A DNA stretch of 64,000 nt from positions 1 through 64,000 of the forward strand of contig JAKAXE010000003.1 in the NCBI GenBank assembly GCA_021816695.1. Direction: 5' to 3'. This document shows, piece after piece, positions 1,702 through 5,381 of the stretch. The position numbers and the translations under genes are program-made. The notes under the pieces were generated by a model, which made no database searches, had not been told where the DNA came from, and saw only the letters and a list, made by a program, of their open reading frames with translations. Origin of the DNA: a bacterium (GTDB lineage Bacteria; Chloroflexota; Dormibacteria; Aeolococcales; Bog-877). Position 1 is the first letter of the stretch; each line of letters opens with the position of its first letter.

Positions 1702-2277
1702 TCAGACCGGAACTCCCCAGAGGGCGTACCAGCGCTCCAGGTCCGGCTCCACCGGCAGGTCCTCCTTGGCCACCGCCGCCAAGCGCATCTCGGTGGCATT
1801 GTCCCGGCGCCGGTCGCCGGTGGGAACGAAGGGGTAGAAGGTGGCCTCCTTGTACCCGTAGATCCAGTAGACCGGCCCCGAGGCCGAGGTGAAGGGGAAG
1901 ACCGCCGCCAGAAGGCAGTCTCCCAGGCCCTCGTCCAGAAGTCCGGTGGCAACCGCGTGCAGGGCGGCCAGGGTGGTATCGAACTGCTTGCCCTCCACCA
2001 GAAGCCACTCGAACCCGAGGTCGTCCTTGACCTCACTGACCGTGAGGGCGTCCTCGGGTGCTGCCTTGTCCTGCAACCCGAGCATGGCCACCGTGTCCTG
2101 GGTCAGCTGCTGGAATCGTCCGCTGGGCAGGGAGCGGAACACCACCCCCACCCGTCCTGTGGGCTGGAGCCCGGCCGCGGTCTCCAGGGTGAGCATGGCG
2201 GTGCTCATGGCGAAGATCTTGTCCTCGTTGGACTTGGGGAGCTTGGTCCGGCCGAGTATGGAGTCGAGGAAGCCCAC
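1702..2277 (-). CDS. pspAB: PspA-associated protein PspAB
   Basis: The 191-residue protein begins GFLDSILGRTK and contains LTLETAAGLQPTG and FEWLLVEGKQFD, resembling the PspAB family that neighbours pspA and htpX in actinobacterial genomes. Its biochemical role is unknown; no membrane segment or catalytic motif is visible. It starts with GTG 9 nt after the htpX stop, so htpX-pspAB form an operon that converges on pspA: the two stop codons are 2 bp apart with no room for a terminator. The name rests on resemblance plus neighbourhood. Confidence 0.82.
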   Translation of the reverse strand: MGFLDSILGRTKLPKSNEDKIFAMSTAMLTLETAAGLQPTGRVGVVFRSLPSGRFQQLTQDTVAMLGLQDKAAPEDALTVSEVKDDLGFEWLLVEGKQFDTTLAALHAVATGLLDEGLGDCLLAAVFPFTSASGPVYWIYGYKEATFYPFVPTGDRRRDNATEMRLAAVAKEDLPVEPDLERWYALWGVPV

Positions 2278-2286
2278 ACCCCAACT

Positions 2287-3210
2287 CTAACCGGAAATCT
2301 TCGCCTCCAGCTCGCGGAGCTTGGCCAGCCGATGCTCCAGGGAGGGGTGGGTGGAGAACACCTCTGCCAGGCTCCCCTTGCCGGCGGTGATCGCGGGGAA
2401 GATCATGAAGGCGTTGGCCGACTGCACCTGGCGGAGGTCCCGGCTGGGGATCCTGGTCATGGCGCCGCTGATCTTCTGCAGCGCCGAGGCGAGTTGCGAT
2501 GGCTCCTGGGTGATGATCGCCGATCCCCGGTCGGCGGCGTATTCCCGGTAGCGGGAGAGGGCCCTGATCAGGACGAAGCTGATGGCCCAGACGACCGCCG
2601 CCACCAGGATGATGACGATCATCCCCTCACCCTCATCCGAGCCCCGCCCGCGGCCGTAGCCGCCACCGTAGCCAAAGCCGCCAAACATGCCAAACCACAT
2701 CCCGGACTGCACGATGAGGGAGGCAACAGTGGCGAAGAACCCGGCCATGGCCATGACCTTCACATCCCGGTGGATCACGTGGCTGAACTCGTGCGCCAGC
2801 ACCGCCTCCAACTCCTTGGGCTCCAGCTGGTCAAGGATGCCCGTGGTGACGGCCACCACGGCGTTCTTGGGGTTGCGGCCGGTGGCCAACGCGTTGGGGA
2901 CCCGGGACGGGATCACCGCCACCTTGGGCATGGGCATTCCGGTGAGCTGGGCCAGCCGACCCACGATGTCGTGCAGCTGGGGGTACTGCTGGGGCGTGAC
3001 GATCTGGGCATGGAGCGCGGAGAGCACCATGCGGTCCGAGAAGTAGTACTGGGCCACCAACAACACGGCCACCACCACCACGATGGTGACGATTCCGGTG
3101 TGCAGCAGCAGCAGAACCCCGACGAAGGCGAGGTAGACCACCGCCAGCAGGAAAAGCGTGAGGAACATCCGGGCCGTGAGCCCGACGTCGGTGCCCAATT
3201 TGCGTTGCAT
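2287..3210 (-). CDS. htpX: HtpX-like M48 zinc metalloprotease
   Basis: This is an integral-membrane endopeptidase that degrades damaged membrane proteins. The 307 residues show two N-terminal membrane helices (about residues 10-30 and 35-52), a zinc site HEFSH in VLAHEFSHVIHRD, a Gly/Tyr-rich insert (FGGFGYGGGYG) and a third helix (IVIILVAAVVWAISFVLI). The downstream EYAADRGSA supplies the third zinc ligand. The open frame continues about 110 codons upstream, but that stretch is low-complexity antisense to the PspA paralogue, so the ATG at 3210 was chosen; a TATATA -10 ends 8 nt before it. HtpX beside PspA partners fits joint envelope quality control. Confidence 0.95.
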   Translation of the reverse strand: MQRKLGTDVGLTARMFLTLFLLAVVYLAFVGVLLLLHTGIVTIVVVVAVLLVAQYYFSDRMVLSALHAQIVTPQQYPQLHDIVGRLAQLTGMPMPKVAVIPSRVPNALATGRNPKNAVVAVTTGILDQLEPKELEAVLAHEFSHVIHRDVKVMAMAGFFATVASLIVQSGMWFGMFGGFGYGGGYGRGRGSDEGEGMIVIILVAAVVWAISFVLIRALSRYREYAADRGSAIITQEPSQLASALQKISGAMTRIPSRDLRQVQSANAFMIFPAITAGKGSLAEVFSTHPSLEHRLAKLRELEAKISG

Positions 3211-3218
3211 GCACCCTC

Positions 3219-3242
3219 TATATACCCGTTTCCTGGGAACTG
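3219..3242 (-). promoter_or_regulatory. htpX promoter (-10) with an imperfect palindrome
   Basis: On the minus strand TATATA (3224-3219) ends 8 nt before the htpX ATG, so the mRNA would start at or within a base or two of the start codon. Just upstream lies the near-palindrome GTTTCC-T-GGGAAC (3228-3240), placed where a regulator or the -35 region would sit. The -10 is clear; the operator idea is only a suggestion. Confidence 0.5.
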
Positions 3243-3303
3243 ACGCAGAGGGACATCTTGGGGACCGCCCCGCCAACCGCGCTAGGATGGGCCGGAGCAG
3301 GTC

Positions 3304-4149
3304 GTGGAGGTGGTTCAGCCCTTGTTTGTCGATGCCCTGGTCGGCGGCTTCATCCTCGCCCTCATGGGTCTGGGGCTGCGCACCAGTGTGGGTCGTCGCC
3401 TCACTCGTCTCTTCTCCCAGCGCTCCCACGCCCTCCGGGGACGGACCGCGGATCCCCTCGAGGCCCTGGACGTCGCCTACCGCCGCCAGGCCGAGGTCCT
3501 TCAGCAAGCGAGGCGAGGGATCGCCGAGGTGGTGACCTCCCACAAGCGGCTAGAGCTCCAGGCCAAGAGGTTTCGTGAGAGCCAGGTTCGGCTCCGCGAT
3601 GAGGCCCGCCAGGCTCTCCTCTCCGGGCGCGAGGACCTAGCCAGAGTCGCCCTGACAAGGGCCCATGCCACCGCCTCCCAGCTGGCCTCCCTAGAGCTGC
3701 AGGTTGCTGAGCTGCGAGATCAGGGGGCCCGGCTGGAGCTGGCCACGGAGCGCCTGAAGACAAGAGTGGAGGGATTCCGAAGTCAGAAGGAGGTGTTCCG
3801 GGCGCAGTACTCGGCGGCCCAGGCTTCGGCGCGCATCGCCGAGTTGATCACCGGCATCTCGGGGGAGATGGGGGACGTCAGCCGGATGCTGGAGGCTGCT
3901 CGGGAGCGCACGCGGCAGATGGAGGCTCGGGCGGCAGCCACGAGCGACCTCGTGACCACCCACCACCCCGCTACCATTGGCGGAGACGAGACTGGCCGCC
4001 AGCCGGGAGCCACGGACGGAAACGCGGTCGCCGGAGCGCAGCCCAAGACGCTGCGGCCCGAGCCCCCGCACCATCCCGAAGGGGTCGCTCTGCTAAATTC
4101 CAGTTCCGCATCCACGTCAGAGCCGTCTTCACTGCCAGAGGGAGGTTGA
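3304..4149 (+). CDS. PspA/IM30 paralogue with an N-terminal membrane helix
   Basis: This 281-residue second PspA-family protein aligns with the upstream pspA along the coiled coil (ADPLEALDVAYRRQ against ENPVEALDLSYQKQ; GREDLARVALTRA against GREDLARLALTRA). It differs at both ends. Residues about 6-25 (LFVDALVGGFILALMGLGL) form a hydrophobic helix in place of the usual short amphipathic helix. The C-terminal 70 residues are a polar, low-complexity tail with no PspAA domain. The GTG start at 3304 follows GGAGCAGG, and TAGGAT lies about 20 nt upstream. It is divergent from htpX, and its stop overlaps the ribosome-binding region of the next gene. It may be a permanently membrane-tethered PspA. 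Confidence 0.85.
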   Translation: MEVVQPLFVDALVGGFILALMGLGLRTSVGRRLTRLFSQRSHALRGRTADPLEALDVAYRRQAEVLQQARRGIAEVVTSHKRLELQAKRFRESQVRLRDEARQALLSGREDLARVALTRAHATASQLASLELQVAELRDQGARLELATERLKTRVEGFRSQKEVFRAQYSAAQASARIAELITGISGEMGDVSRMLEAARERTRQMEARAAATSDLVTTHHPATIGGDETGRQPGATDGNAVAGAQPKTLRPEPPHHPEGVALLNSSSASTSEPSSLPEGG

Positions 4150-4154
4150 ACCAA

Positions 4155-4409
4155 GTGCTCCACGTCATCGCTTTCATCGTCATCGGGGTGGTCATCGGGG
4201 CCCTCTACATTCGCCAGTCGCGCGGAGCGGCCGCGACGATCCGGGTCATCGCAGGGCTGGCCGGTAGCCTCATCGGTGGCTTTGTCACCCTGGCGGTCCT
4301 AGGCAGTGGCCACACGTCCGGGAAGTACGGGAGCATTCTGGTGGCGATCGTGCTGGCGGTGATCCTCTCCGCCCTGGCGACCGCGGGCACCCGGCCCCGG
4401 ACCGCCTGA
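4155..4409 (+). CDS. Small membrane protein, GlsB/YeaQ/YmgE-like
   Basis: This 84-residue, very hydrophobic protein has three predicted membrane helices (about 2-17, 27-48 and 57-75) and a Gly-rich second helix (GLAGSLIGGFVTLAV) like the GlsB/YeaQ/YmgE stress-response family. Its function is not defined biochemically. I chose the GTG at 4155 because GGAGG (4141-4145) lies 9 nt upstream; a TTG at 4146 abuts the Shine-Dalgarno and is less likely. That Shine-Dalgarno lies inside the last codons of the membrane-anchored PspA paralogue, so the two are translationally linked and probably work together in envelope stress. Confidence 0.7.
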   Translation: MLHVIAFIVIGVVIGALYIRQSRGAAATIRVIAGLAGSLIGGFVTLAVLGSGHTSGKYGSILVAIVLAVILSALATAGTRPRTA

Positions 4410-4421
4410 TTTCGGTCCCCC

Positions 4422-5381
4422 CTAGGGACCTACCGAGAAGAACTCCTCCGCTCGACGTCGGTCCTTGGCCATCTGGGCCACCAGCTCCGCGTCGGAGCGG
4501 AACGTCTCCTGGCCCCGGATCCGCTCCAGGACCTCGGCGATCAGCTCCTGGCCGTAGAGGTCCGGGGTAGGGCCGAGGCCATGGACCTCGAACCGCCGGT
4601 CGCGCCCGGAGAAGTGGGGACGTGTGCCGACGCTTCCCACCGCCGGCCTCGGCTCTCCGCCGGAGGCCGGCCTCCAGGTCATGACGTAGACGCCGTCGGG
4701 AGGCAGGAGCTGCGCCGGGAGGGTCCTGAGGTTGGCGGTGGGAAAGCCGAGGACTCGACCCAACCCCTCTCCCCTCACCACCTCCCCCATCACCTGAAAG
4801 GGGTGGCCCGCCAGGTGCGGATACTCCGAGACCCGGCCCTCCTGGAGCAGGCGCCGCAGTTCGGAGCTGCTCACAGCCACGGTCCCGACCACCACCTGGT
4901 CGACAACCTCGAGGCCGAGCTGGTGTTCTCTGGCGTAAGCACGCACGAAGTCCACCCCCCCGCTGCCATCACGACCCAGGGAGAGCCGAGGACCGGCTGC
5001 CAGGCCGACGACCGCCAGCTGGTGGCGCAGGCGCGAGAGGAACTCCCCCGGGTCCTGCGCCCGCAGCCGGTCATTGAAAGGGATGACCAGCACCTGGTCC
5101 ACACCAGCCTCCGCCAGCAGGCGGCGGCGAAACCTGAGCGGTGTGAGAAGGCCCGGCACCGACTGCGGACGCAGGAGGTGCGCCGGATGAGGTTCGAAGG
5201 TCACCGCCACGACCATCCCCTGTGGGCCCGCCATTTGGCGCGCTGCCCGCAGGAGTCGCTGGTGGCCCAGATGCACCCCGTCGAAATTGCCCACCGCCAC
5301 CACTGCCGGCGGGCCATCATTGGGCGGGCCGTTGAGAGGGATCCCAAAGACAGCCGGGACCCCGACCCCCAAGTCAGCCAC
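4422..5381 (-). CDS. ribF: Bifunctional riboflavin kinase / FAD synthetase
   Basis: RibF makes FMN and then FAD from riboflavin and ATP. In 319 residues the nucleotidyltransferase half carries GNFDGVHLGH (31-40), FEPHPA (62-67) and VSSSELRRLL (170-179); the riboflavin-kinase half carries GFPTANL (212-218), DGVYV and a C-terminal helical region. One oddity: the usual G-x-D-F-x-F-G loop after the first Rossmann strand reads GPRLSLG (130-136), losing the Asp-Phe pair. The GTG at 5381 overlaps the truB stop by 8 bp; truB-ribF is the common bacterial order. It is the last gene of the minus-strand run that starts at secDF. Confidence 0.95.
   Translation of the reverse strand: MADLGVGVPAVFGIPLNGPPNDGPPAVVAVGNFDGVHLGHQRLLRAARQMAGPQGMVVAVTFEPHPAHLLRPQSVPGLLTPLRFRRRLLAEAGVDQVLVIPFNDRLRAQDPGEFLSRLRHQLAVVGLAAGPRLSLGRDGSGGVDFVRAYAREHQLGLEVVDQVVVGTVAVSSSELRRLLQEGRVSEYPHLAGHPFQVMGEVVRGEGLGRVLGFPTANLRTLPAQLLPPDGVYVMTWRPASGGEPRPAVGSVGTRPHFSGRDRRFEVHGLGPTPDLYGQELIAEVLERIRGQETFRSDAELVAQMAKDRRRAEEFFSVGP

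Follow-up and report, generated by a model that had tools for sequence, protein, structure and literature searches.

A second PspA with an added, predicted membrane-anchoring helix is paired with a GlsB-like gene in one bacterial family

The membrane is where proteins of the PspA type act, PspB and PspC being among their known anchors. The locus described here, which encodes an ordinary PspA (PspA1), a second PspA with a hydrophobic N-terminus (PspA2), and a small membrane protein, bears on how PspA is recruited to membranes and on the sites at which its polymers start: is PspA2 a permanently anchored PspA, and what could such a protein do beside a soluble one? A natural PspA with a built-in anchor, encoded next to its unanchored parent, allows one to test directly the need for reversible membrane binding by helix alpha0, and also whether polymers can grow from a fixed subunit. 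The pairing of PspA2 moreover suggests what GlsB-like proteins may do; these membrane proteins are linked to stress, occur widely, and have, to our knowledge, no established mechanism.

All coordinates refer to the window, i.e. the whole stretch of 64,000 nt that was analyzed, and "family" designates the 18 genomes of the window's own family. The first 5.4 kb contain, in this order, a CsaA-like gene, pspA1 (+), pspAB (-), htpX (-), pspA2 (+), glsB-like (+), and ribF (-), where CsaA-like and ribF are what we take the two outer genes to be judging by their sequences. PspAA, PspAB, and a membrane metallopeptidase adjoin pspA, as indicated by matches to PF22743, PF22742, PF01435, and PRK02391, all over the cut-off. 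A PspA-PspAA fusion accompanied by PspAB and a membrane metallopeptidase is a PSP context already described by Ravi et al. 2024 (PMC11237479), who report the fusion from Actinobacteria and Chloroflexi. A comparable set, with PspA, a small gene, HtpX, and further genes, is found on a Rhodococcus plasmid. The unusual part of the window locus is the second PspA with its small partner, the rest being a known module.

Table 1 Features of the pspA2-glsB-like locus; positions are those of the window, except for the last two rows, which lie in other genomes.
Feature	Position	Strand	Basis or remark
pspA1, ordinary PspA fused to PspAA	605..1699	+	PF04012 88 bits, PF22743 89 bits
pspAB	1702..2277	-	PF22742 207 bits; in 18/18 family genomes
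htpX, M48 zinc metalloprotease, divergent from pspA2	2287..3213	-	PRK02391 425 bits, PF01435 123 bits
-10-like TAGGAT of pspA2-glsB (inferred)	3283..3288	+	comparison of divergent htpX/pspA2 intergenic regions
Shine-Dalgarno GGAGGTGG of pspA2	3306..3313	+	8 nt before TTG 3322
pspA2 CDS, 275 aa, TTG start (in-frame GTG at 3304 as alternative)	3322..4149	+	PF04012 77.3 bits; orthologues; Shine-Dalgarno
hydrophobic helix added at residues 2-20, predicted to be an N-out/C-in anchor	3325..3381	+	preceded by an acidic residue, followed by a basic cluster
retained alpha0-equivalent, residues 22-41, basic, amphipathic, muH 0.45	3385..3444	+	alignment, model
ESCRT-III-like core: hairpin helices 45-178, alpha4 183-213	3454..3960	+	AlphaFold2, Foldseek, alignment
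degenerate tail, residues 214-275, alpha5 lost	3961..4146	+	predicted disordered; dN/dS 1.49
Shine-Dalgarno GAGGGAGG of small gene, in last pspA2 codons	4138..4145	+	invariant in seven congeners
glsB-like CDS starting with GTG, 84 aa with three membrane helices predicted	4155..4409	+	17 homologues, model, dN/dS 0.09
ribF	4422-5381	-	
recombinase-like ORF, genus g5	L048:4615-5436	-	
recombinase-like ORF, genus g5	L052:6002-7078		

The initial annotation had announced a second PspA, and the pspA2 product indeed matches PspA_IM30 (PF04012) on the + strand with E=2e-21 and a score well over the cut-off of 33.9 bits; all 16 PspA2 orthologues match it as well. The GTG that opens the longest ORF is a less likely start than the TTG, which was preferred because the orthologues start at or near that position and because of the spacing of GGAGGTGG upstream of it. 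The GAGGTGG of this Shine-Dalgarno sequence is invariant in seven congeners. No -35 consensus was found upstream of pspA2, where a promoter scan gave nothing above chance, and sister genera have TAACAT at the place of the window's TAGGAT. The divergent region between htpX and pspA2 (3214-3321) contains a TATATACCC element that is preserved across genera. On the htpX side, the TATATA lies near the ATG, so that the htpX mRNA would have a very short leader or none. Genus g5 carries a tyrosine-recombinase-like ORF, identified by eye, which sits between htpX and pspA2 in one genome (G011) and in place of pspA2 in another (G014).

The N-termini of the 16 PspA2 orthologues share one layout, in which a few residues are followed by an uncharged run of 12-17 residues (15 in the window's genus, 12-14 in most sister genera) and then by Arg and a basic stretch. 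We estimated insertion energies and hydrophobic moments (muH) with our own simplified calculation. For its best segment, the window's helix has a muH of 0.04-0.08, whereas alpha0 reaches about 0.5 in both PspA1 and E. coli PspA, and muH is low in all 16 orthologues: the segment is hydrophobic and not amphipathic, as first annotated. According to the same simplified calculation, the insertion energy is -0.2 to -0.5 kcal/mol for the window's helix, -0.8 to 0 kcal/mol in its genus, and between about 0 and +1.8 kcal/mol in the remaining genera, most sister genera lying at +0.5 to +1.8 kcal/mol. No Lys or Arg precedes the helix in any of the 16 proteins, an Asp or Glu does so in 15, and 3-5 Lys/Arg follow within 12 residues.

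This distribution of charges is that predicted for an N-out/C-in membrane anchor. The claim that the helix spans the membrane agrees with the negative insertion energies of the window's genus, whereas spanning is doubtful in the sister genera, with their shorter uncharged runs and energies of up to +1.8 kcal/mol. Because the uncharged run is short (12-15 residues in most) and the energies are borderline, the helix may insert without spanning. A deep, non-spanning insert, by which PspA2 would bind the membrane more strongly and less reversibly and act alone, the GlsB-like protein being mechanistically unrelated, would suit the values from most sister genera; it seems unlikely to us, given the strong charge asymmetry in 16 of 16 orthologues and the low hydrophobic moment, both as in a signal anchor, and the negative energies in the window's genus. 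A cleaved signal peptide and export of PspA2 would also account for a hydrophobic N-terminus. We rejected this reading as very improbable, since the positive charges lie behind the helix and not before it, where an acidic residue is usual. If PspA2 is indeed permanently anchored, it would work differently from a recruitable PspA, as had been argued from the outset.

The hydrophobic helix had initially been placed in lieu of the amphipathic one, which proved incorrect. An alpha0-equivalent is retained at residues ~22-41, and the hydrophobic helix is an extra element in front of it. Position 27 of the PspA2 profile aligns with residue 4-5 of solved PspA/Vipp1 chains, and what follows the hydrophobic helix can be aligned with the PspA1 N-terminus; in addition, AlphaFold2 models a separate helix at 22-41, the first 40 residues having low confidence (pLDDT 52-60). 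The alignment and the modeled helix together indicate that the anchor was added, not substituted. The alpha0-equivalent, with a muH of about 0.45, is very basic, more so than that of PspA1, and is not at the N-terminus. The rest of the model shows the ESCRT-III fold, with helices at 45-100, 104-178, and 183-213, and the best Foldseek matches are Vipp1 and PspA (8qbs, E=1.6e-5, probability 1.00). The hairpin tip, GREDLARxxLTR, is nearly invariant among PspA2 proteins.

In PspA/Vipp1 filaments, alpha5 is the helix that links subunits by binding across a neighbor's hairpin tip. PspA1 has its complete motif, DDIDRQL...VEAQLxxLRQELL, as do the PspA2 proteins of G001 and most other genera. In the alignment, substitutions disrupt the motif in the window and four congeners, and early stops eliminate it from two others; PspA2 of G011 (g5) also lacks most of alpha5. 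The tip that receives alpha5 is kept in all seven congeners that lost this helix. The loss of alpha5 is secondary and occurred inside the family, so that homology to PspA stands and a PspA-like polymer function does not follow from it.

Downstream, the ribosome-binding site of the small gene meets the end of pspA2 as annotated: GAGGGAGG lies in the last codons and the TGA (4147-4149) precedes the small gene's start. The position of the pspA2 stop between GAGGGAGG and this start makes translational coupling likely. The TTG at 4146, which starts the first-listed ORF, was rejected as start codon of the small gene since the conserved ATG/GTG sits at 4155, 9 nt after GAGGGAGG; an ATG or GTG occurs there in all 17 homologues, giving a protein of 84 aa. 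A low-confidence model places its helices at 2-24, 28-52, and 58-81 (87-aa numbering). The name GlsB-like proved right, though the relation is remote. PF04226 is weakly matched by 12 of the 17 members (best E=5e-5), and the profile of the small protein extends to class-level proteins that score 37-43 bits against PF04226, clearly over its cut-off; the window's protein itself stays below the Pfam cut-off (16.4 bits against 25.3, E=0.011), and we therefore call it GlsB-like and not a member of PF04226. No relatives were found in the PDB. The subfamily (E<1e-10) occurs in the window's family and two genomes of the same order, the latter without PspA alongside; solo small membrane proteins with MLHxxAFxVIG and no PspA nearby were seen in this order at L074:1471-1779 and L075:228-533. 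The sequence CTGCTAAATTCCAGTTCCGC at 4090-4109, of which the window holds no other copy, varies little or not at all among seven congeners, including the two whose pspA2 frame stops before it, and might serve the glsB-like gene as an internal promoter or a leader.

PspA2 is present in 16 and the small gene in 17 of the 18 family genomes. One genome (G016, 64% complete) has neither, and G014 has the small gene with the recombinase-like ORF instead of pspA2. The conservation of the pair is confirmed by these 16 genomes, which represent five genera and whose PspA2 proteins are 41-87% identical to that of the window. In a tree, all PspA2 proteins form a single clade (support 99/99) that is sister to the family's PspA1, which probably reflects one old duplication; three long-branched proteins from another family of the same order fall on the PspA2 side, perhaps as an artefact. 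Scanning 400 genomes of the phylum revealed, on inspection, no PspA outside the family that aligns through the anchor, and none of the 67 non-family PspAs whose N-termini were read has an anchor-like extension: nearly all have their start codon at the canonical alpha0, one or two starts being ambiguous. Matches elsewhere in the phylum whose alignment opens at profile positions 10-19 (G438, G418, G345, G105) were discarded since all these proteins begin at the canonical alpha0, as were haloarchaeal plasmid PspAs that seemingly match the anchor, the match lying upstream of the annotated start and containing in-frame stops. A further PspA-like protein, the third in the window's own genome, is divergent and 260 aa long (L055:3511-4293, contig C15), with an N-terminal part of ~100 residues, no recognizable alpha0, and a homologous match in G004.

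Selection was estimated by a counting method within seven close congeners, with shared ancestry uncorrected. The resulting dN/dS values are 0.18 for the PspA2 core, 0.31 for alpha0, 0.57 for the anchor, 1.49 for the tail, and 0.09 for the small protein, compared with 0.04 for PspA1 (four of the seven congeners). Both members of the pair are under purifying selection, the constraint on the helix being only moderate. We think it distinctly unlikely that PspA2 is a decaying duplicate, merely upstream of a GlsB-like stress protein that would be the conserved element. Its faster evolution relative to PspA1 and to the small protein, a tail dN/dS of 1.5, the truncated tails in two family genomes, its absence from G014 while the small gene stays, and the nucleotide element conserved upstream of the small gene past the ended frame would all be compatible with decay, but the low core dN/dS, the nearly invariant hairpin tip, and the helix charge pattern kept across five genera argue against it. 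PspA2 is a real, conserved, lineage-restricted variant of PspA, for which the anchor, the pairing, and the loss of alpha5 are new; a non-exhaustive literature search found no published anchored PspA.

What could PspA2 do? Our preferred explanation, which we put a little short of an even chance, is that this anchored paralogue acts as a fixed receptor or seed for PspA1, aided by its GlsB-like partner. One duplication of the ordinary PspA would have produced PspA2, which then acquired a short hydrophobic anchor ahead of alpha0; this anchor would hold PspA2 in the cytoplasmic membrane, its PspA domain facing the cytoplasm. Its hairpin might then join the soluble PspA1 polymer, allowing assembly at the membrane without anchors of the PspC, LiaI, or YdjG/H type. 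In the window's genus, the alpha5-less PspA2 would be one-sided, receiving a neighbor's alpha5 at its hairpin tip and giving none, as would suit a seed or end subunit; this version would be limited to the window's group, because most other genera of the family have a complete alpha5. The probably co-translated GlsB-like protein may be a small membrane partner that positions or stabilizes the anchor. In eukaryotes, lipid-anchored Vps20 starts Snf7 filaments, a role analogous to the one proposed for the PspA2 seed. By this analogy, PspA1 and PspA2 could form a two-PspA ESCRT-III system, with PspA1 as the soluble polymer subunit and PspA2 as a membrane-spanning, alpha5-less seed or end subunit that replaced PspC as the family's anchor, a more specific proposal that we regard as possible though doubtful. 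The PspC domain is absent from all 18 family genomes and present in 39 of 92 other genomes of the class (Fisher p=2e-4, relatedness uncorrected). SPFH proteins occur in all 18, so that another anchor is possible.

The same features could suit a brake. PspA2 and the GlsB-like protein would then form a stress sensor keeping PspA1 non-polymerising at the membrane until HtpX/PspAB removes PspA2 upon stress and releases PspA1. The divergence of pspA2-glsB from htpX-pspAB across a short conserved intergenic region is in line with this, the loss of alpha5 would fit a brake too, HtpX is part of the known module (PMC11237479), and the Rhodococcus gene set is similar. However, no direct link ties HtpX to PspA2, and outside the window's genus alpha5 persists in most orthologues, which makes a brake rather improbable in our judgment.

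The fixed-receptor explanation can be compared with known systems. Among bacterial ESCRT-III proteins (PspA/IM30/LiaH/Vipp1), PspA2 shares the PF04012 domain, an alpha0-equivalent region, the hairpin, and alpha4, and differs in its extra hydrophobic N-terminal anchor and, in the window's genus, in the missing alpha5. The small protein resembles GlsB/YeaQ/YmgE (Transgly_assoc, PF04226) in its length of about 85 aa, its three membrane helices, and its glycine and Gly-Ser pattern, and departs from them by a signature of its own, MLHxIAFxVIG...GKYGS. Every component of the module of Ravi et al. 2024 (PMC11237479), including the PspA-PspAA fusion, is present beside pspA2, to which the window locus adds the second, anchored PspA and the GlsB-like gene, neither being named in the portion of that paper considered here. 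LiaI (PMC9239133), YdjG/H (PMC8581546), and VIA1 (PMC13051332) are anchors of PspA-type proteins. In the LiaI-LiaH and YdjG/YdjH-YdjI-PspA systems of Bacillus subtilis, small membrane proteins recruit a protein of the PspA type, much as proposed here; these anchors are separate proteins, whereas that of the window appears fused to a PspA copy, with another small membrane protein alongside. The cyanobacterial homologue of PPR, with an ESCRT-III-like hairpin and transmembrane helices, and VIA1 are likewise membrane-integral partners of Vipp1/PspA; they are described as lacking overall ESCRT sequence similarity (PMC13051332), whereas PspA2 is a full PspA paralogue.
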